Source: Mycobacterium sp.
GTDB taxonomy: Bacteria; Actinomycetota; Actinomycetes; Mycobacteriales; Mycobacteriaceae
Reading direction: 5' to 3'
Length of the DNA stretch: 64,000 bases
Assembly: GCA_020438865.1 (NCBI GenBank)
Contig: JAGQTU010000002.1
Coordinates: 184,873-248,872 of the forward strand
The position numbers and the translations under genes are program-made. The notes beneath the pieces were generated by a model. That model had not been told where the DNA came from. It did not search any database and was given only the letters and a program-made list of their open reading frames with translations. How positions within the stretch are numbered: position 1 is the first letter of the stretch; the number at the start of each line of letters is the position of its first letter. This document shows positions 14,113 to 54,645 of the stretch, in pieces.

Positions 14113-14759
14113 ACACGCTGCGTGAGCCGAGGGTGGTGGCCGCCATCGACCGCATGTACGCCGAGACGGTCGACCAGATGGCGCGGCTGGGCGATTTCGA
14201 CTGGCAGCGGCTGGCCAAGGCCAGCCCGCAGGAGCGGGCCGACATCTTCAGCGAGTTCTACTTGCCGGTGACACCGGAGTCCGGCCGGCTGCTCTACACC
14301 CTGGTGCGCGCCGCCCGCCCCGCCACCGTCGTCGAGTTCGGAATGTCGTTGGGGCTCTCCGCGATTCACCTCGCCAGCGCGGTGCGCGACAACGGCGCAG
14401 GCCGGGTCGTGACGACCGAGTTGAGCGCGGCCAAGGTCACCGCCGCCACGGCGACGTTCGCCGAGGTAGGTCTGGCAGACGTCATCACCGTGCTGGCGGG
14501 CGACGCGCTACAGACCCTGGCCGACCTCGATGCACCCGTCGACTTCGTGCTGCTCGACGGGTGGAAGGAGTTGTACCTGCCGGTGCTGCGACTGCTGGAG
14601 CCGAAGTTGAGCCCGGGCGCACTCGTGGTGGCCGACAACACCGGCCTGCCGGACACCCAGCCGTATGTCGACCACGTGCGCGACCCGGCGAACGGCTATG
14701 TGAGCGTGGCGTTCCCGGTCCGCGAGTCCGACGCGATGGAGATCAGCTGCCGCGCCTGA
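14109..14759 (+). CDS. Class I SAM-dependent methyltransferase (O-methyltransferase-like)
   Basis: 216 residues with the SAM-binding motif VVEFGMSLGLSAIHLA (about 76-91), an acidic residue at the end of strand 2 (VTTELSAAK) and an FVLLDGWKELYLPVL motif IV-like strand. This arrangement is that of small caffeoyl-CoA-type O-methyltransferases. GTG start overlaps the previous stop by 3 nt. Substrate unknown. Convergent with the acyl-AMP ligase gene; a short GC hairpin (CGCGCC-TGAC-GGCGCG, 14751-14766) spans the stop codon. Confidence 0.8.
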   Translation: MNTLREPRVVAAIDRMYAETVDQMARLGDFDWQRLAKASPQERADIFSEFYLPVTPESGRLLYTLVRAARPATVVEFGMSLGLSAIHLASAVRDNGAGRVVTTELSAAKVTAATATFAEVGLADVITVLAGDALQTLADLDAPVDFVLLDGWKELYLPVLRLLEPKLSPGALVVADNTGLPDTQPYVDHVRDPANGYVSVAFPVRESDAMEISCRA

Positions 14760-41964: not shown

Positions 41965-42441
41965 TCAGCGGTTGAGGCGCCAGATCGCGGTGGACAGCAG
42001 CGTCGCGAACGAACACCACAGCGGATACGGGACCAGCGCGACGCCCAGCTTCGGGTCCGCCTCGCCGGCCCGGCGGGCCAGGTCGGCGCTGCTGGCCGCC
42101 AGCGCGCCGGCCGCCACCGCCGACAGCCCCAGCTTGTGCGCCTTGAAGAACAGCCAACTCCAGCCGGCGTTGAGCACGAGGTTGGAGCCCAGCGCCGCGG
42201 TGTAGGCCCGCGCCTTCGCGTCATCACCGTCGGCGCGGAACCGGTTGATGGCCGAGGCCGACGTCACCGCGATGTCGGCGTACAGGGTCGTCCACGCGAT
42301 CGGGAACGCCGCATTGGGCGGATTGAAACTCGGCTTGCGCAGCGTGGGGTACCAGTTCTGCACACCCTCACGGCTGGCCACGCTTCCGACGACCGCGGCT
42401 GCCGCGGTGGCCAATGCTGTTCCGACGATCGCCTTACCCAT
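41965..42441 (-). CDS. TspO/MBR family membrane protein
   Basis: 158 residues, five hydrophobic helices. The family signatures WYPTLRKPSFNPP (about 30-42), IAWTTLYADIAV and NAGWSWLFF (about 92-100) are present. TspO proteins bind tetrapyrroles and sterols and are linked to oxidative stress. TAGGTT lies 6 nt before the ATG on the minus strand (leaderless). First gene of a three-gene unit with the two lipoproteins. Confidence 0.9.
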   Translation of the reverse strand: MGKAIVGTALATAAAAVVGSVASREGVQNWYPTLRKPSFNPPNAAFPIAWTTLYADIAVTSASAINRFRADGDDAKARAYTAALGSNLVLNAGWSWLFFKAHKLGLSAVAAGALAASSADLARRAGEADPKLGVALVPYPLWCSFATLLSTAIWRLNR

Positions 42442-44789: not shown

Positions 44790-45611
44790 TCATGCGCGGC
44801 TGAACGCCGACGCGGCCGCGACCTGTTCGGGCGTCGGACGAACGCCGGTGTAGCGCCAGAACTGCTCGGCGGCCTGCAGGGCGATCACCTCCGCACCCGT
44901 GATGACCCGCTTGCCGGCCTGCCGCGCGGCGGTGACAAGCGGGGTCTCCGAGGGAAACGCAACCACGTCGAAGACCGTCTCGGCGGCGGCGATCGCATCC
45001 TCGCCGAAGGCCCGTTCCCCTTCGCCGGGGCCGTCGGCCATCCCGATCGGCGTGACGTTCACGATCACGGCGGCGTCGATGTTCCCGACATCGGGACGCC
45101 ACTGGTAGCCGAGCCGCCGGGCCAGTTCGGGCCCGGCCTCGCTGTTGCGGGCCACGATCGTTCCGGCGCGGAACCCGTTGTCGCGGAAAGCCGTTGCGAC
45201 CGCACTCGCCATGCCGCCGCTGCCACGGATGAGCACGCTGCGGCCCGGGTCCAGCCCGTGCTCGGCGATCAACTGCTGCACGGCGATGTAATCGGTGTTG
45301 GCCGCGCTGAGCACACCGTCGTCGTTGACGATCGTGTTCACCGCGCGGATGGCACGAGCGGAGTCCTCGACGTGGTCGACGAGCGGGATGACGTCCTGCT
45401 TGAACGGCATCGACACCGAGCAGCCGCGGATGCCCAGAGCGCGCACCCCACCGATCGCGGCGCCGATGTCGGTGGTGGTGCAGGCCTTGTAGATGAAATC
45501 CAGGTCGAGTTGCTCGTAGAGGTAGTTGTGGAACCGGGTGCCGATATTGCTCGGGCGGGCGGCCAGCGAGATGCACAGTCGGGTGTCCTTGTTCAGCGCC
45601 GGCCTGCCCAT
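44790..45611 (-). CDS. Shikimate 5-dehydrogenase-like protein (AroE family)
   Basis: 273 residues with the AroE layout: substrate Lys in SVSMPFKQDVIPL (about 66-78), catalytic Asp in NTDYIAVQQ (about 105-113) and NADP loop IRGSGGMASAVATAF (about 130-144). The N-terminus (SLAARPSNIGTRFHNYLY) differs from classic AroE and is typical of a paralogous group, so it may act on another substrate. The ATG starts one base after the acetyltransferase stop (TGAGATG), so both are translated together. Confidence 0.85.
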   Translation of the reverse strand: MGRPALNKDTRLCISLAARPSNIGTRFHNYLYEQLDLDFIYKACTTTDIGAAIGGVRALGIRGCSVSMPFKQDVIPLVDHVEDSARAIRAVNTIVNDDGVLSAANTDYIAVQQLIAEHGLDPGRSVLIRGSGGMASAVATAFRDNGFRAGTIVARNSEAGPELARRLGYQWRPDVGNIDAAVIVNVTPIGMADGPGEGERAFGEDAIAAAETVFDVVAFPSETPLVTAARQAGKRVITGAEVIALQAAEQFWRYTGVRPTPEQVAAASAFSRA

Positions 45612-45612
45612 C

Positions 45613-46689
<1,077 letters not shown>

Positions 46690-46738: not shown

Positions 46739-47608
46739 TCAGAGGTGGCGGGACCGGTTGACGAAGCGACCGGCCCGTGGCGAGAACATCCACCCGCCGC
46801 CGGCCCTGGTCCCGCCGTCGACCGGGATGTTGTGTCCGGTGACGAATGCCGACTGGTCGGAGGCCAGGAAGAGGGCAACCCGGGCCTGGTCCTCGGGCCA
46901 GCCGACCCGGCCCACCGGCGCCCACGACCGCCACAACTCCTCGACGTCCTCGTACCCGGTGAGGTAGTCGACCTGTGGCGTCTGGGTGAGGTCGGTTCCG
47001 ATGCCGTTCACCCTGATTCCATGCCGTCCGACGTCGACCGCGAGACATGTGGTGAAGTGCGCCACAGCGGCTTTCATGGCGCCGTACACCGGGTCGCGGG
47101 GAAATCCACGCATCCCCTCGACGGAGTGGACGTTGACGATGCTCCCCGTACCGGCCTCGATCATCGCGGGGAGGAACGCGCGGGTCACGGCGAAGACGTG
47201 CCGCAGATTGATGTCGTACATCCGTTGCCAGGTGTCGGCGGAGGATTCCTCGAAGGCCACCATCGGGCGGTAGTCGCCGACGTTGTTGACCAGCACGTCG
47301 ACCCGGCCGTGGCGGCCGAGCACCGCCTCGGCGAACCGCGCGACGTCGGCGTCGGCGGTGACGTCGACGACGTGGGCGTTGATCCTGCCGCCGGCCGCGG
47401 CGACGTCGGATGTGATGCGTTCGGCGCGTTCGGCGTCGATCTCGGCCACCTCGACGTGGGCGCCGTGCGCGGTGAACAGCGCCGAGATCGCCCCGCCGAT
47501 GCCGGCCCCGCCGCCGGTGACGACGGCCACGCGGCCGTCCAGCAGGCGATTCCAGTCACCGATCTGCGGCACCTCGCGGGCCTGTCGTGCGGATAGCTCG
47601 TCGCTCAT
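46739..47608 (-). CDS. Short-chain dehydrogenase/reductase
   Basis: 289 residues with VVTGGGAGIGGAISALF (about 29-45), NNVGDYRP, and the Ser-Tyr-Lys triad in VHSVEGMRGFPRDPVYGAMK (about 160-179). The C-terminus (INPVDGG-type, TGHNIPVDGGTRAGGGW) is that of classical NAD(P) SDRs. It follows the polyketide cluster by 80 bp on the same strand and could take part in it, or be an independent gene. Substrate unknown. Confidence 0.85.
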   Translation of the reverse strand: MSDELSARQAREVPQIGDWNRLLDGRVAVVTGGGAGIGGAISALFTAHGAHVEVAEIDAERAERITSDVAAAGGRINAHVVDVTADADVARFAEAVLGRHGRVDVLVNNVGDYRPMVAFEESSADTWQRMYDINLRHVFAVTRAFLPAMIEAGTGSIVNVHSVEGMRGFPRDPVYGAMKAAVAHFTTCLAVDVGRHGIRVNGIGTDLTQTPQVDYLTGYEDVEELWRSWAPVGRVGWPEDQARVALFLASDQSAFVTGHNIPVDGGTRAGGGWMFSPRAGRFVNRSRHL

Positions 47609-47688: not shown

Positions 47689-48705
47689 CTAGGAGGCGAG
47701 CAGGTTGACCATTCCGGCGAACACAGCGGGCAGCGCGGCGGCGGCGGGCACCAACCGCGAACGCACCGGCTCGAAGCCGCTGGCCTCGAGTAACGCCGCG
47801 GTCAGCAGCCGGTAGCGGCGCGACATCTTCCGCCACTGCCGGTCGTAATCCTGCGGGGTGTCGGACACCACGCAGTTCACCAGCAGTTCGGCGCCGGCGA
47901 ACGCGATCCCCAGACCCTCGCCGGTCAGGGCGTCGACGTAACCGGCGGCGTCCCCGACCAGCAGCACGCGGTCGGCTGTACGGCTGCTGACGGGCTGCCG
48001 CAGCGGACCCGCCGCCCGGTCGGTCCCATGTGGCTGCCCGGCGAGATGGGCTGCGAGCAAAGGGAATTCGGTCAGGTGCCGGTCGAATCCGCCCTGGGTC
48101 GAGGTCAGGATCGCGACGCCGACGCAGTCGTCCGCAACCGGGGTCACGTACGCCTCGGCGCCCGGCGCCCAGTACACCTGCACCCGGTCGCTCCACGGCG
48201 CCGTCGCATAGTGCCTGCGAATCCCCCACCGTCGAACCCCCCGGCTGGGCCGGGCGAGGCCGAGCGAGCGACGGATCGGCGAGTGCAGGCCGTCCGCGGC
48301 GGCGAGGTAGCGGGCCCGGAACTCCCCACAGCGAACCGACGCGCCGTCCTGGGTAACGGGCCCGATGTCGTTGCGCACCAGGCGAACTCCGGCGGCCGTT
48401 GCCGCCTCCAGCAGCGCCGCGTGCAGTGCGGTGCGACGCACGCCCATTCCGACGCCGGCCCGGAACCCGGCATCGACCCGACGGGTCTCGTCGAGGTAGG
48501 TGATGCCGTGAAACGGCCTGCCGCGCAGCGGGATACCGAACTTCTCCAGTTGGGCCACGGTGTGCGGCATCAGGCCCTCGCCGCAGGCCTTGTCGATCGG
48601 CCCCTGCCTGCGGTCGGCGACGACGACGTCGAGTCCGGCCCGGGCGGCATGCAGGCCGGTGACCAGCCCGGCCGGTCCGCCACCCACGACGAGGAGATCG
48701 ATCAT
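47689..48705 (-). CDS. FAD-dependent oxidoreductase of the geranylgeranyl-reductase/monooxygenase family
   Basis: 338 residues. FAD motif LLVVGGGPAGLVTGLHAARAG at the N-terminus, a DG motif ADGLHSPIRRSLG (about 138-150) and a GDAAGYVDALTGEGLGIA motif (about 255-272). This set is found in aromatic-ring hydroxylases and geranylgeranyl reductases. The ATG overlaps the stop of the ICMT-like gene (ATGA). In the type III PKS cluster it would oxidise the polyketide ring, for instance to a quinone. Confidence 0.87.
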   Translation of the reverse strand: MIDLLVVGGGPAGLVTGLHAARAGLDVVVADRRQGPIDKACGEGLMPHTVAQLEKFGIPLRGRPFHGITYLDETRRVDAGFRAGVGMGVRRTALHAALLEAATAAGVRLVRNDIGPVTQDGASVRCGEFRARYLAAADGLHSPIRRSLGLARPSRGVRRWGIRRHYATAPWSDRVQVYWAPGAEAYVTPVADDCVGVAILTSTQGGFDRHLTEFPLLAAHLAGQPHGTDRAAGPLRQPVSSRTADRVLLVGDAAGYVDALTGEGLGIAFAGAELLVNCVVSDTPQDYDRQWRKMSRRYRLLTAALLEASGFEPVRSRLVPAAAALPAVFAGMVNLLAS

Positions 48706-49211
48706 GTCAGGCTCGCCAGCGCGCGGTTCTCGGTGCCGATCCGGGTGCGCAGCAGCATCGCGTTCGCCAGTGTGAACACCAGCGCGGTCAGCCAGGCGGT
48801 GTGCACCAGGGGCAGGGCCACTCCCTCGGCGATCACCGCGAGGTAGTTCGGGTGCGGCAGATAGCGATACGGGCCGCCGGTGACCCGCGGCGCGCCGGGA
48901 ACCACCACGACCCGGGTGTTCCACCGATGACCCAGGGTGGTGATGCACCACCACCGCAGCGCCTGGGCGCCGAGGACGATCGCCAGCATCGGCCAGCCCA
49001 GCGCGGGCAGGAACGGGCGGCCGAGCCAGGCGACCTCGGCCACACATCCGAGGAGGAAGCCGGTGTGCAGCACGACCATGACCGGGTAGTGCGCGGCGCC
49101 GAATTCGACGCCGCCGTGCGCTCGGCTCCAGGCCAGGTTTCGCCGGGCGACCACCAGCTCGGCCAGGCGCTCGACCGCCACCGCGGCGATCAGGAGCAGA
49201 TACCAACCCAT
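48702..49211 (-). CDS. Isoprenylcysteine carboxyl methyltransferase (ICMT)-like membrane methyltransferase
   Basis: 169 residues with four to five hydrophobic segments. The C-terminal SAM-binding region has RVTGGPYRYLPHPNYLAVI (about 108-126), the hallmark of ICMT/phospholipid-methyltransferase enzymes. It starts 7 nt after the type III PKS gene and overlaps the FAD enzyme gene. Together these three genes are the usual core of mycobacterial type III PKS loci; here it probably methylates a hydroxyl or carboxyl of the product. Confidence 0.87.
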   Translation of the reverse strand: MGWYLLLIAAVAVERLAELVVARRNLAWSRAHGGVEFGAAHYPVMVVLHTGFLLGCVAEVAWLGRPFLPALGWPMLAIVLGAQALRWWCITTLGHRWNTRVVVVPGAPRVTGGPYRYLPHPNYLAVIAEGVALPLVHTAWLTALVFTLANAMLLRTRIGTENRALASLT

Positions 49212-49218
49212 GGCTGCG

Positions 49219-50286
49219 TCAGTGCCAGTTGAGCAACAGCAACTCGGAGCAGAACCCCGGCCCCATCGCCATCATCAGCCCGCGGCCGCTGGGCGGCTGC
49301 TTGGCCATGGTGTCGCGCAGCACGTGCAGCACCGAGGCCGAGGAGATGTTGCCGATCTCGGCCAGTGAGCGCCAGGTGAGTTCCAGCGCGTCGTCGGGCA
49401 GGCCCAGGCTCGAGACGATCGCCTCGATGATCTTCGGGCCACCGGGGTGGCTGACGTAGACGCCGATGTCGTCGAGGCCGAGGTCGTGGGTCGCCAGGAA
49501 CTCCGTGACATCGGCCTGCAGGTAGCGCTCGATGACGTCCGGCAGGTCCGCGGACAGCACCAGCTGCAGCCCGGAGGAGTCGACGTCCCAGCCCATCGTG
49601 CGCAGCGAGTCCGGGTAGAGGTGGCTGCGCGAGTCGAGCACGTCCGGCCCGCCGGCGCCGATCCGCTCGGCGCGGCGTTCGCCGACCGCCACCACCGCCG
49701 CCGCGCCGTCGGCGAACAGCGCGCTGCCGACGAGCCCGCTGACCTCGGCCTTGAGGGCGGGAAAGGTCAGCGAGCACAACTCGACGGCGACCAGGACCGC
49801 GACGTCGTCGGGCGCGCCGCGCAGGTAGTCGTGCAGGCGCGCGACACCGGCCGCTCCCGCCACGCAACCGAGGCCGAACATCGGCACCCGCCGCACGTCG
49901 GGGCGCAGCCCCAGCCGGCCGGCGATCCGCGCGTCCAGCGACGGCACCGCGATCCCGGTGACGGTCGTCGAGATGATGACGTCGACGTCCTGCGGCGCCA
50001 GGCCGGCCTCTTCCAGAGCGCCGGACAGCGCGGCACACCCGAGTTCGACGGCGTGCTCGATGAACAGGTCGTTGGCCGCGCCGAAATCGGTCAGCTGCGG
50101 ATAGGCCTCGATGGGCAGCACCAGGTTGCGGTAGTCGACCTTGGCGTTGGCGTGCAGGCCCCGGACGAGCTTCTCGAAGCCCTGGAACGCGGGCAGTTCG
50201 ACGAACGCGTCGGTGATCTCGGCCTGGCTGTAGCGGTGCGGCGGTACTGCGCCGTGCACGCCGGCGATGACGCTGATGGGACTCAT
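49219..50286 (-). CDS. Type III polyketide synthase (Pks10/Pks11-like)
   Basis: Chalcone-synthase-fold homodimer, 355 residues; condenses a long acyl starter with malonyl/methylmalonyl-CoA. The triad Cys141 ([12 protein letters not shown]), His280 (YVSHPGGPK) and Asn313 ([11 protein letters not shown]) is complete. The ATG at 50286 matches the N-terminus of M. tuberculosis Pks11; a GTG at 50355, directly after the mmpL stop codon (TAAGTG), would add 23 residues. M. tuberculosis homologues make alkylpyrones; M. smegmatis ones make polyketide quinones. Confidence 0.93.
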
Positions 50287-50355
50287 GTTCTGGTCACGAG
50301 CAGCCGAAGGGTTTGGTTCAACCCGTCCCGGCCGCCGTGCGCTGCTGTTGGACAC

Positions 50356-52590
50356 TTAACCAGTATGCCGGTTGTTGCCGGATTCGCTAATCCCCAGCAA
50401 ACTGTGAACCTTCACCAGCGGCTTCGGTGCCCACCAGTTCCACCTGCCCATCACGTGCATGAACGCCGGCACCAGCACCATCCGGACCAGGGTCGCGTCC
50501 ATGAGCACAGCAAGGCTCAAACCGAGGCCGAACATCCGCATGAAGGCGACGTGGGCGGCGATCAGCGCGGCGAACGAGATCGCCATGATCAGCGCCGCCG
50601 CGGTGATCACCCGCCCGGTGTGCGCAACGCCCAGGGCGACGGACTCGTCGTTGTCGCCGGGGCCGCGGGGCGACTCGAGCCAGAACTCCCGGATCCGCGA
50701 GACCAGGAACACCTCGTAGTCCATGGACAACCCGAACGCGATGCAGAACAGCAGCACCGGAATGTTGGCGACCAGGGTGCCGGTCGGGGTCGTCCCCAGC
50801 CCGCCGAGATGGCCGTCCTGGAAGATCCACACCATCGCACCGAACGCCGCCGACAGCGAGAGGATGTTCAGCAGCACCGCCTTGACCGGAAGCACCACGC
50901 TGCCGGTCAGCAGGAACAGCAGGACCAGGGTGATCACCGCGATCAGTCCGAGCACCAGGGGCAGCCGCGAAGTGATCGCATGGACGCTGTCGCGGTTGGT
51001 CTGCGCCGTGCCGGCGAACTCGACCGCCCGGCCGCCGGGCGGGGCCATCGCGTGCAGGGAGTCCAGCTGGCGGTCCGAGCGGTCGGAGAACAGCGGCGCG
51101 ACGCTGTCGACGGTCAGCAGGGTGGTTCCGGACTGGGTGCCGGTGGCGGCGGACGGCGGCCCGACGAGCGCGCCGTTGACGTAGGTTCCGCCGGGCGCCG
51201 ACACCGCCGAGACGTCGGACACCCGGGACAGCCGTTCGGCGTACATCGAGATGGCCCGGTCGTCGAGTCCGGTCGAGTCGGGGATCAGGATCTGCGCGGC
51301 CGTCGCGGAGCTGTTGGTGAAGTCGCTGCGCAGCTGGTCACCCACCTGGTGCGCCGAGGCGGACTTCGGCAGCACCCGGTCGTCGGGGAATCCCGGACGC
51401 ACCCCGAAGAACGGCGCGCCGAGCACGATCAGCACCGCCACCCCGGCCAGACCGATCGGCAGCGCGCGGCGCATCACGAATCGTGTTGAGCGGTACCAGA
51501 ACTGCTGCTCGATCGGGCGGGGCTGCGGCTCCGGGCGGTGCAGCACCCGACGGATCAGCCTGCGCACGTCGAGCGCGTCGATGCGGTCGCCGAGCAGCGT
51601 GATCGCCGCCGGCGTGATCACGATGGCCGCCAGTGCCGCGAACGCGACGGTGGCCACCCCGGCATAGGCGAAGGACCGCAGGAAGTACATCGGGAACAGC
51701 GCCATCACGGCCATCGACAGGGCGACGGTGGTCGCCGAGAACAGCACCGTGCGACCGGCCGACACCATCATCGTCATCAGGGCGTCCGGACGCTCGGCGC
51801 CTTCGGCCAGTTCGTCGCGGTAGCGGCTGATCATGAGCAGCGTGTAGTCGATGGCCAATGCCAGGCCCATCGCGGTGGTGAGGTTGAGCGCGAAGATCGA
51901 CACGTCGGTGAAGAAGGTCGTGACCCGCAGTACCGCAAGGGATCCCAGGATCGCCATGATGCCGACGCCGACCGGCAGCGCGGCGGCGAACAGCCCGCCG
52001 AACACCCACAGCAGGACGATGAAGCTCAGCGGCACCACGATGGACTCCAGCAGCAGCAGGTCGCGCTGCGATTGCCGGGTGATCTGCAGGTTCACCATGG
52101 CGACCCCGCCGGAGCGCACCATGATGCCGTCGGTGTCCCTGGCGATCTGCTTGGTCAGCGACTCGGTGTACTCCAGCTGGGTGCTCTCCGAACCGGTGAT
52201 ACCGGCGACGATCAGACCGGACTTCTTGTCGCTGCTGACCAGATCGGAGCCGGCCCCGGGCGGTACGGTCCACGCCGAGGTGACGGAGGCGACGTGACCG
52301 GAACGCTGCAACTGGTCGACGATGTCGGTGGCCGTCGCCCGGGCCCTCGGGCTGTCGAAGCCGTCCTGCGCTGTGACGACGACCACCAGCTGCGCGTCAC
52401 CCTGGCCGAACTTGTCGGTCAGCAGTTTCGCTGCCCGCGCCGACTCGGCGTTCGGGTCCTGCAGCCCGCCGGACGACAGGTGCCCGGCGACCGGGACACC
52501 GAAGATCCCGACGGCGATCATCGCCAGCACGGCGACGACGAGGACGCGCCGCGGCGCGGCAATCGCCAGCAGCGCGATCCGGCGCAGCAT
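50356..52590 (-). CDS. MmpL-family RND lipid transporter
   Basis: 744 residues. Two hydrophobic halves, each with one membrane helix, a large extracytoplasmic loop (about 45-180 and 385-520) and five to six helices; the proton-relay region ALAIDYTLLMISRYRDEL (about 265-282) and its second-half equivalent SMDYEVFLVSRIREFW are intact. It is shorter than MmpL3 (no long C-terminal tail). Five bases after the preceding methyltransferase gene, with a GGTAGGGCGG ribosome site. It probably exports or inserts the polyketide product. Confidence 0.92.
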   Translation of the reverse strand: MLRRIALLAIAAPRRVLVVAVLAMIAVGIFGVPVAGHLSSGGLQDPNAESARAAKLLTDKFGQGDAQLVVVVTAQDGFDSPRARATATDIVDQLQRSGHVASVTSAWTVPPGAGSDLVSSDKKSGLIVAGITGSESTQLEYTESLTKQIARDTDGIMVRSGGVAMVNLQITRQSQRDLLLLESIVVPLSFIVLLWVFGGLFAAALPVGVGIMAILGSLAVLRVTTFFTDVSIFALNLTTAMGLALAIDYTLLMISRYRDELAEGAERPDALMTMMVSAGRTVLFSATTVALSMAVMALFPMYFLRSFAYAGVATVAFAALAAIVITPAAITLLGDRIDALDVRRLIRRVLHRPEPQPRPIEQQFWYRSTRFVMRRALPIGLAGVAVLIVLGAPFFGVRPGFPDDRVLPKSASAHQVGDQLRSDFTNSSATAAQILIPDSTGLDDRAISMYAERLSRVSDVSAVSAPGGTYVNGALVGPPSAATGTQSGTTLLTVDSVAPLFSDRSDRQLDSLHAMAPPGGRAVEFAGTAQTNRDSVHAITSRLPLVLGLIAVITLVLLFLLTGSVVLPVKAVLLNILSLSAAFGAMVWIFQDGHLGGLGTTPTGTLVANIPVLLFCIAFGLSMDYEVFLVSRIREFWLESPRGPGDNDESVALGVAHTGRVITAAALIMAISFAALIAAHVAFMRMFGLGLSLAVLMDATLVRMVLVPAFMHVMGRWNWWAPKPLVKVHSLLGISESGNNRHTG

Positions 52591-52595
52591 CCGCC

Positions 52596-53369
52596 CTACC
52601 CCGACTTCCGGGGCCAGGGCAGCCAGTACGGCACGGCGCCGGCGTAGCGGTCGAACGTCGAGCCGTGCACGCGCCGGAACCGGGCCTCCTTGAACAGGGG
52701 TCCGATCAGGCAGTACGCGGTCAGGGTGAGGGCGACGGCGAGTTGGTCCGGGGTCCAGGTCGGCACGGTCCACACGGTGAGCGCGAACGCCACGTAGATC
52801 GGCTGCCGGGTGAACCTAAATAGGCCTGTGCTGGGCATTTGCGGATACATCGGCTTGCTCCCGCGCAGCAGCGCGGTCCAGCCGATGCTGCCGGTGTGCA
52901 GGTTCAGTCCGGCGTCCAGGATGGCTTTGCCCAGCAGTAGCCAGGACGCGGCGTAGAGCAGATCCACGGCCGCCAGGCCGGCCGAGCGGGCATGCCACCA
53001 GATGGTCCCGCTCGGTGTCCACAGGGCGAACAGCGCGAACACCTGGGCCGAGGCGATGATCACGTATGTGGTGGTGCTGAGGGTGGCCCCGGTACCCGCC
53101 GGCGCCAAACGCGCCAGCACCGCGCGCCCCCGGGTGCTCAACAGAATCGAATGCAGCACCGGAAAGGCAAGCAGGAGAGCGGCATTCGCAACCCAGCCCC
53201 ACGGCTGCGGCACCCTGCCCAGTGACCGGCTCATGCCGAAGTACATGGCGACCATCATGCTCGCCAACGCCAGGACGAAGCCGGTGTGGCAGATGACGCC
53301 GTACCACACCGCGACGACCGCCCGCCGACCGCTGGTTTGCACGGTCGCGGTCGGAATCGACACCCCCAC
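52596..53369 (-). CDS. MddA-like membrane methyltransferase (NnrU/ICMT superfamily)
   Basis: 257 residues, six hydrophobic segments. The C-terminal TGLFRFTRQPIYVAF and KEARFRRVHGSTFDRYAG motifs are those of methanethiol S-methyltransferase MddA and related ICMT-fold enzymes. As the first gene of the five-gene polyketide unit it may O- or S-methylate a lipid intermediate rather than methanethiol. GTG start with GGAGGG 5 nt upstream. Confidence 0.83.
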   Translation of the reverse strand: MGVSIPTATVQTSGRRAVVAVWYGVICHTGFVLALASMMVAMYFGMSRSLGRVPQPWGWVANAALLLAFPVLHSILLSTRGRAVLARLAPAGTGATLSTTTYVIIASAQVFALFALWTPSGTIWWHARSAGLAAVDLLYAASWLLLGKAILDAGLNLHTGSIGWTALLRGSKPMYPQMPSTGLFRFTRQPIYVAFALTVWTVPTWTPDQLAVALTLTAYCLIGPLFKEARFRRVHGSTFDRYAGAVPYWLPWPRKSG

Positions 53370-53398
53370 TCACCCTCCGGTCGCTCGGTTTGCTGGAC

Positions 53399-53426
53399 AA
53401 CCTAGCGTGAGCGCACGGTTGTTCGC
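53399..53426 (-). promoter_or_regulatory. Candidate promoter of the polyketide operon
   Basis: On the minus strand TAGGTT (53404-53399) is a TAnnnT -10 box about 30 nt before the GTG. Overlapping it, GCGAAC (53426-53421) and GTTG are spaced 19 nt, one mismatch from a SigH-type promoter. Both readings are weak. Confidence 0.3.
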
Positions 53427-53502
53427 CAGAAAGCGAGGATAATGGGTGGTTCGGGGTGCCCCGGGCGGGCGTCGGTGGTGGTTGCCCGAGGGGTCGGCGC
53501 CG

Positions 53503-53724
53503 TTAGGACTTGCCGAAGAACGTCGCCTTGACGACCGGCCCCTGCATCACCGTGCTGGTCGCCACGACGTTCGTGCCGACGTCCGAGGACGGCAGCACCG
53601 TCGCGCCGGCGCCGCCGAACGTGTTCGCCTGGAGTTCGGCCGGCGCCCCCTGGGACACCAACGCCGCGGCAAGGACGCCGAGCGCTCCGAGCCCGGCTAC
53701 CGCACCGATTCGTTTGACGCTCAA
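53503..53724 (-). CDS. Small exported protein (73 aa), unknown function
   Basis: A TTG start with AGGGGG 5 nt upstream opens a 73-residue protein: a Lys-Arg then a hydrophobic helix (IGAVAGLGALGVLAAALV) form a signal peptide or anchor; a short Gly/Ala/Val-rich exported part ends in VVKATFFGKS. Codon use is like that of its neighbours and third positions are mostly G or C. It diverges from the ubiE-like gene with 162 bp between. The TTG start makes it easy to miss. Confidence 0.6.
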   Translation of the reverse strand: MSVKRIGAVAGLGALGVLAAALVSQGAPAELQANTFGGAGATVLPSSDVGTNVVATSTVMQGPVVKATFFGKS

Positions 53725-53886
53725 TGTGACCCCCTGGATCGTTGGTTGAGTGAGAAGCGTGCGGTTCGAGTATCTCCGCCCCACCCCACGGGTTCCGTCG
53801 GCTGCGCGTACAGGTCGCTGTGAAGCCGCTGCCGAACGGCTTGGGCGAAACTGTCGGTTGGCTGTGCGCGGCGGCGTGGCCTGCGA

Positions 53887-54645
53887 TTGAACTTTTCGGC
53901 GGCTCAGATCGTTGGCAACGGTGTGGTGACCCAGCGCTGGAACGAGTCGAACGAGGCCAAGAGCGGATACGTGAACGATCTGTTCTCCGCGTTGGCCGGC
54001 CGCTACAACGTGATGACCGACGTGTGGACGTTCGGGCTGCACCGGTTGTGGAAGCGCCAGGCCATGGAACTTCTCGCGCTGCGCCCCGGTGACCGGGTGC
54101 TCGACGTCGCGACCGGGACGGGCGACCTGGCGATGCTCGAGGCGGCGGCGGTGGGGCCCACCGGCCGGGTGGTGGGGGTGGACTCCTGCGTGCCGATGCT
54201 CGAGGTGGCCCGCCACCGCGACCACGGGTGCGTCGACTTCCAGGAGGGCGACGCCATGGACCTGCACTGGCCGGACGCCTCCTTCGACGTGGTGACGATC
54301 GGCTTCGGGTTGCGCAACGTCGCCGATCGCGCCCTGGCCCTGCGCGAGTTCGGCCGCGTGCTGCGGCCCGGCGGGCGGTTGATGGTGCTCGACTTCAGCA
54401 CCCCGACGTCGAAGCCGCTCAGGGCCGTGCACGACACCTTCTACTTCACCCTGATGCCCAGGGTGGGGTGGGCGGTGGCCTGGCATAACGACGCGCACCG
54501 CTACACCTCCGATTCGATCCGCACCTGGCTCTCCCGGGACGAACTCAGCGCGGCGATGACGGAGGCCGGGCTCGTCGATGCCCGCTACGTGTCGCTGAGC
54601 ACCGGCTTCGCCACCGTTCACCTCGCATCCCGCGCGACCGACTGA
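53887..54645 (+). CDS. UbiE/MenG-like quinone C-methyltransferase paralogue
   Basis: 252 residues. Family motif YNVMTDVWTFGLHRLWKRQA (about 40-59), SAM motif VLDVATGTGDLA (about 70-81), DAMDLHWPDASFDVVTIGFGLRN and GGRLMVLDFSTP. UbiE/MenG enzymes C-methylate a quinone ring, which fits the polyketide quinone hypothesis for the adjoining cluster. Start uncertain: TTG 53887 as given, or GTG 53923/53926; none has a good ribosome site. Divergent from the five-gene operon. Confidence 0.85.
   Translation: MNFSAAQIVGNGVVTQRWNESNEAKSGYVNDLFSALAGRYNVMTDVWTFGLHRLWKRQAMELLALRPGDRVLDVATGTGDLAMLEAAAVGPTGRVVGVDSCVPMLEVARHRDHGCVDFQEGDAMDLHWPDASFDVVTIGFGLRNVADRALALREFGRVLRPGGRLMVLDFSTPTSKPLRAVHDTFYFTLMPRVGWAVAWHNDAHRYTSDSIRTWLSRDELSAAMTEAGLVDARYVSLSTGFATVHLASRATD

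Follow-up and report, generated by a model that had tools for sequence, protein, structure and literature searches.

A mycobacterial locus resembling polyketide-quinone operons, with a linked MmpL transporter gene and additional methyltransferase-like genes

The window analysed in this work is a stretch of 64,000 nucleotides (nt) from the genome of an environmental Mycobacterium sp. (contig JAGQTU010000002.1), and the system considered is a run of five genes on its minus strand, between positions 47689 and 53369. According to the open reading frames (ORFs) of the window and to the family searches, these genes code, in the order of transcription, for an MddA-like membrane protein, an MmpL transporter, a type III polyketide synthase (PKS), an ICMT-family methyltransferase, and a flavin adenine dinucleotide (FAD)-dependent enzyme (Table 1). 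The spacers are very short, i.e., 5 nt between the MddA-like gene and mmpL, 0 or 69 nt between mmpL and the PKS gene depending on the PKS start, and 7 nt between the PKS and ICMT genes, while the ICMT and FAD genes overlap by 4 nt; the five genes form a contiguous and probably co-transcribed unit. The preliminary description of this DNA had reported this gene order, the strands, gaps of no more than 7 nt except at the PKS start, and a divergent UbiE/MenG-like gene, all of which the ORFs and families confirmed; it was likewise right in counting three methyltransferase-like genes and one transporter.

Table 1. Features of the locus and of its surroundings (window coordinates).
Feature	Coordinates	Strand	Evidence or remark
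MddA-like membrane protein, putative methyltransferase	52596..53369	-	MddA model, 65.6 bits
744-aa MmpL transporter; its family also occurs next to mcr	50356..52590	-	PF03176, 271 bits, two stretches
Type III PKS	49219..50286 (ATG 50286; alternative GTG 50355)	-	Chal_sti_synt N and C
ICMT-family membrane methyltransferase (pkqB position)	48702..49211	-	PF04140, 96 bits
FAD-dependent oxidoreductase/hydroxylase, geranylgeranyl-reductase-like (pkqC position)	47689..48705	-	FAD_binding_3
73-aa ORF, signal-like N-terminus (by eye)	53503..53724	-	weak coding support, score 22
Divergent intergenic region	53725..53922	.	between the small ORF and the UbiE/MenG-like gene
UbiE/MenG-like methyltransferase paralogue	53923..54645 (GTG start inferred; ORF opens 53887)	+	TIGR01934
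SDR oxidoreductase, 80 nt downstream of the FAD gene	46739..47608	-	retained downstream in some members of the clade
cNMP-binding + GNAT acetyltransferase, 61 nt past the SDR gene	45613..46677	-	downstream neighbour
Shikimate-dehydrogenase-like protein, 1 nt past the acetyltransferase gene	44790..45611	-	downstream neighbour

Concerning the PKS-ICMT-FAD core, the catalytic Cys, His, and Asn of the PKS are present, as judged by eye; this protein is the sole PF00195 match found in its assembly (4.96 Mb, rated 90.9% complete) and is 99% identical to the PKS of the metagenome-assembled genome HKST-UBA43. The FAD enzyme scored 111 bits with the geranylgeranyl-reductase superfamily model, below its cut-off of 158.8. 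A PKS relative was retrieved from 266 of the 297 Mycobacterium genomes (E 1e-20); we refer to the sequences sharing at least 60% identity with the window PKS as clade A and to those below 60% (mostly about 50%) as clade B. A spread sample of the genus included 75 genomes (G001, then every fourth handle from G004), 69 of which gave an ICMT match. Out of the 107 ICMT rows from these genomes, 25 second copies were left out and the other 82 are covered by 80 regions; one of them (G032) is an older 3-kb locus excluded from the counts of the following FAD gene, so that 79 new loci were counted. These contain 71 PKS-ICMT pairs, 41 belonging to clade A and 30 to clade B, and the FAD gene follows all 41 of the former and 23 of the latter. 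An additional set of 80 named loci, which are the best PKS matches and represent an uneven sample (several share genomes with the spread sample), includes 68 loci with a PKS-ICMT pair, all of clade A and all followed by the FAD gene; none of these named loci is from M. smegmatis. Since this gene follows the clade-A pair in 41 out of 41 and in 68 out of 68 cases, the PKS-ICMT-FAD arrangement is not due to chance. Gene calls were obtained with a simple codon-usage caller, which missed genes seen by tblastn (e.g., in L042 and L064); thus, the locus counts are based on tblastn.

The linkage of the core with the transporter gene was checked in a set of 81 loci, i.e., the distinct clade-A PKS sequences with at least 3.8 kb upstream; PKSs without an adjacent ICMT, below 60% identity, or with less than 3.8 kb upstream are excluded from it. 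An MmpL gene on the same strand, no more than 2.5 kb upstream of the PKS gene, was found in 58 of them: in 45 it lies within 200 nt, in 12 the MddA-like gene is placed between the two, and in the remaining one another gene is. At least six gene families are represented at the position next upstream of the PKS-linked mmpL; the MmpL-PKS pair has thus persisted through changes in its neighbourhood. The MmpL family as a whole was matched in 290 of the 297 Mycobacterium genomes and is therefore not dedicated to the PKS pathway; the PKS-linked branch may be.

As for the other members of this family, a racemase gene adjoins mmpL in 15 out of 17 regions around MmpL copies outside the PKS cluster. The racemase matches the solved MCR with 701 bits, and we take this locus to be mcr-mmpL13 and the MmpL beside mcr to be MmpL13. 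The latter is probably the nearest kin of the window MmpL, with an identity of 64-67% for the mcr-locus copies. In a 71-row FastTree tree, the PKS-linked and the other MmpLs largely separate, with three label changes. Three MmpL copies are harboured by the genome under study, namely, the window copy, the mcr-locus copy (C363), and an orphan (G000:C365:463-2682, L264), which shares 71% identity with the window copy and has no PKS in the 9 kb around it. Near 11 clade-B PKS loci, the mcr-locus MmpL lies more than 5 kb away and on the opposite strand, and many other stretches end earlier. Among solved structures, MmpL3 is the closest (327 bits); it was considered as a candidate identity of the window transporter and rejected: the score of 380.6 bits did not reach the MmpL3 model cut-off of 1400.

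Some loci depart from the common organization. ICMT and FAD genes lie near an mcr-type locus in L221, L243, L244, L246, L250, and L259, where neither tblastn nor gene calling found a PKS; this arrangement presumably resembles Rv1139c-Rv1138c of M. tuberculosis. The same two genes adjoin mmpL without a PKS in L260, the whole PKS-ICMT-FAD set is duplicated in tandem in L219, one PKS-FAD set is accompanied by one PKS-ICMT-FAD set in L218, and mmpL is flanked on each side by a PKS-ICMT pair in L249.

The first gene of the run had been described as coding for an MddA-like methyltransferase. The likeness stands as a weak model match, but the equivalog cut-off of 270 bits was not reached; the name MddA was thus rejected and the protein is called MddA-like only. 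No Pfam family was retrieved at E 0.001, a weak PEMT match was obtained for 22 of the 25 aligned relatives, and BLASTP revealed no real similarity with the window ICMT. The 25-row alignment shows a conserved family with motifs resembling those of the ICMT/PEMT superfamily, and a methyltransferase activity may be proposed. The gene is present in 36 of the 297 genomes of the genus and in four of 298 genomes of the order, all four belonging to Mycobacterium.

In the 81-locus set, each of the 31 loci with the MddA-like gene also carries mmpL, and in 28 a divergent gene coding for a catechol O-methyltransferase-like (COMT-like) protein adjoins it; no COMT-like gene occupies that place in the 50 loci lacking the MddA-like gene. 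The three exceptions are the window, a locus of the same species (L040), and that of M. sphagni ATCC 33027 (L064), whose MddA-like gene seems to lack its N-terminal part, as judged from G183, presumably the same genome. By hand comparison of the matches listed, the COMT-like gene lies beside the MddA-like one in 31 of the 36 genomes; the other five are the genome under study, G267 (same species), G183, where the MddA-like match begins only at residue 89, and G032 (a short contig) and G166, with no COMT row among the matches listed. The COMT-like protein (L051 copy) scored 60.1 bits with PF01596, above the cut-off of 22, and that of the relatives matches the solved catechol O-methyltransferase with 126 bits. 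A specificity of the COMT-like family for the cluster was rejected, because 255 of the 297 genomes harbour it; only its location next to the MddA-like gene stands out. Two gene orders occur among the relatives (MddA-MmpL-PKS and MmpL-MddA-PKS), which implies that the set was not broken up by a rearrangement. On the PKS tree, the MddA-like loci fall within one 50-row branch (support 96), along with 15 loci lacking the gene; the environmental species M. rhodesiae (L059, L060) carries the set, including the COMT-like gene. On comparison, the MmpL link recurs in clade A, and the MddA/COMT pair characterizes one branch. A distant COMT-family paralogue, sharing 40% identity with the cluster COMT-like protein of the relatives, is located in the window at about 14157-14687.

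In the window's species, the place of the relatives' COMT-like gene is occupied by the UbiE/MenG-like gene, and no close COMT-like copy was found in its 90.9% complete assembly (best, 40% identity); this is suggestive at most. The product scored 208.5 bits with TIGR01934 (cut-off 158.35). Its assignment as the housekeeping menaquinone methyltransferase was rejected, given that a higher-scoring MenG (239.4 bits) is encoded at C324:72220, near MenJ at C324:75172. The window protein shares with this MenG the UbiE family and the FGLRNV motif, but it is a paralogue with an identity of 39%. At a threshold of 70% identity, the paralogue was found in 20 of the 297 Mycobacterium genomes, 18 of which are not of the window's species. 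These 18 genomes contain 19 paralogue loci (L163-L181), in which no PKS or close MmpL was found within up to about 10 kb per side, some being cut by contig ends; one of them (L175) has a distant MmpL (30% identity). If frames that overlap the paralogue gene are disregarded, no neighbour recurs in more than six of the 19 loci. The idea that the paralogue travels with the cluster as a general rule was thus rejected, and its membership in the cluster is uncertain. As 16 of the 20 paralogue genomes also have a COMT-family gene, a role as a general COMT-like replacement was rejected as well. The COMT-less members of the extended clade carrying the paralogue at the 70% threshold are G000 (the genome under study), G267, G183, and G240, G156 lacking it; these cases are few and were singled out post hoc. 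The small exported protein that the preliminary description had placed between the two strands is weakly supported: besides the coding score and the signal judged by eye (Table 1), the ORF was seen only in the window's species, being absent from the loci fetched for other species, and has no Pfam match.

Genes of this kind have been described in M. smegmatis (pkqABC, MSMEG_0808 region) and in Streptomyces sp. MNU77, where a PKS, a methyltransferase, and an oxidoreductase form an operon; according to the available parts of the two papers, the pkq products are methylated alkylbenzoquinones/quinols involved in respiration at low oxygen, and the papers cite 2015 as the year of the first report of polyketide quinones (PMC9927152, PMC8730385). 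Judged by order and families, the window PKS, ICMT, and FAD genes are adjacent, in the same order, and on one strand as in pkqABC, which in those parts is described as three genes, whereas the window adds the upstream mmpL and MddA-like genes and the divergent methyltransferase gene. The srs operon of S. griseus also embeds a PKS, a methyltransferase, and a hydroxylase (PMC9927152; srs name, PMC5916927), but its description, in the portions available, mentions no MmpL or MddA-like gene. In the Pks10/Pks11-type double cluster, type I PKSs lie between the two genes, according to the accessible text of PMC5916927; the window PKS shares 68-73% identity with the PKSs of such loci, but in the fetched ones the flanking genes are different and no ICMT or FAD gene is adjacent. 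The MmpL of the mcr locus (presumably MmpL13) may belong to the same subgroup as the window MmpL; on the tree, the PKS-linked and mcr-locus copies are largely separate. No link between an MmpL and a type III PKS quinone operon emerged from titles and abstract openings among the matches listed, subscription papers being outside the search. The core has already been described, and what is new is its extension with a transporter and extra methyltransferase-like genes.

Considering gene content and order, the reading towards which we lean, if only slightly, is that of an extended version of the actinobacterial polyketide-quinone (PkQ) operon, in which the ring would be methylated further and the MmpL would move the lipid. 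The methylated polyketide system of the preliminary description is retained in this form, its core being of the polyketide-quinone type, but that core was not new. The PKS would convert an acyl-CoA starter into an alkylresorcinol-type ring, a resorcinol rather than a pyrone being the presumed product; the ICMT-family enzyme would O-methylate it, and the FAD enzyme would hydroxylate and oxidise it to a methoxy-alkylbenzoquinone/quinol. All three steps are carried over by analogy from what has been reported for the pkq and S. griseus operons. A further methyl group would probably be added by the MddA-like protein and, in the relatives, also by the adjoining COMT-like enzyme, and the MmpL, as its gene linkage suggests, would transport the lipid, or one of its precursors, across the membrane or within it. 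The MenG paralogue of the window's species may C-methylate the ring, this being the least certain step. The genus Mycobacterium is known for menaquinone. A bolder version, which we regard as quite improbable, is that the product would be a ubiquinone-like alkylbenzoquinone with two O-methyls and a ring methyl, exported by its own MmpL and acting as a redox lipid that is mobile or extracellular; the ICMT and either the MddA-like or the COMT-like enzyme would then provide the two O-methyls, once the FAD enzyme had formed a catechol, and the window's species would have exchanged a catechol methylase for a quinol C-methylase paralogue.

Several data weigh against the PkQ-variant reading. In 23 of the 81 clade-A loci the PKS lacks a neighbouring MmpL, and MmpL presence requires eight changes on the PKS tree. 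The MddA model score is far below its cut-off, and in the RQPIY motif of the MddA-like protein a Gln stands (by eye) where the PHPNY motif of the window ICMT has His. The COMT-like family is widespread, as seen above, the independent events behind the MddA/COMT association are few (three pairs on starred branches, for which a sign test cannot reach 0.05), and the MddA-like gene and mmpL mostly do not co-vary in such pairs. The linkage of the MenG paralogue to the cluster is found only in the window's species. Lastly, the window PKS is about 50% identical to the mcr-locus PKSs, and Pks11 of M. tuberculosis, named as an alpha-pyrone synthesis protein, is closer to it (72%).

This last point introduces the possibility that the PKS makes alkylpyrones, the methyltransferases O-methylating pyrones or a pyrone/resorcinol mix and the FAD enzyme acting on a side product. 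Pks11 is the nearest solved relative (556 bits) and bears a pyrone name, and on the PKS tree the window clade is nearer to the Pks11-containing clade than to the mcr-locus clade; nevertheless, the nine loci grouping with Pks11 (a 10-row clade including Pks11 itself) have no adjacent ICMT, whereas a FAD gene follows every counted clade-A PKS-ICMT pair, as in quinone operons. We consider the alkylpyrone reading unlikely. The MGWDV stretch is common to the window PKS and Pks11 and hence does not discriminate between pyrone and quinone. A second question regards the transporter, which had been proposed to be dedicated to the system. Its permanence with the core in 58 of the 81 loci agrees with this, but the occurrence of the family in 290 genomes, including some (e.g., G125, G079, and G122) that lack a PKS match and have it beside mcr, together with the 23 loci without it, fits a general envelope-lipid transporter whose linkage reflects shared ancestry and synteny rather than a shared substrate, as does the finding that the PKS-linked copies largely form one branch. 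On the other hand, the linkage holds across the diverse upstream families, and at least five genomes (the one under study, G283, G098, G160, and G204) retain a separate mcr-locus copy too, so that we hold a general transporter to be rather unlikely.

The case is different for the MenG paralogue and the small ORF, which may lie outside the system, brought there by a rearrangement in the window's species; we give this explanation a little more than an even chance. The loci from the other 18 paralogue genomes, with no PKS or close MmpL, speak for it, and so does the COMT-family gene in 16 of the 20 genomes; against it stand the position of the paralogue in the COMT-like slot, the poor similarity of the best COMT-like copy of the assembly, and the quinol-methylase type of the protein itself. 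The conservation with the PKS in relatives, which the preliminary description had left to be checked, was found for MmpL, for ICMT, and, inside a single clade, for the MddA-like gene, but not for the MenG-like gene, found at the cluster in the window's species only.

Downstream of the FAD gene, the cluster membership of the SDR, cNMP-GNAT, and shikimate-dehydrogenase-like genes (Table 1) is uncertain. The fusion of a cyclic nucleotide (cNMP)-binding domain to a GNAT acetyltransferase recurs downstream of the extended cluster in relatives. A TspO/MBR protein is encoded close to the cluster (window 41965-42441) and 22 of the clustered loci contain relatives of it.

Polyketide quinones have been reported, in the available parts of the literature cited above, as another means by which mycobacteria carry electrons when oxygen is low, and the published account of their synthesis involves, in those same parts, three genes with no mention of a transporter. 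The recurrent linkage of the core with one MmpL branch offers a concrete substrate hypothesis for that group of transporters, and from the extra methyltransferases a specific change of the head group can be predicted and checked.

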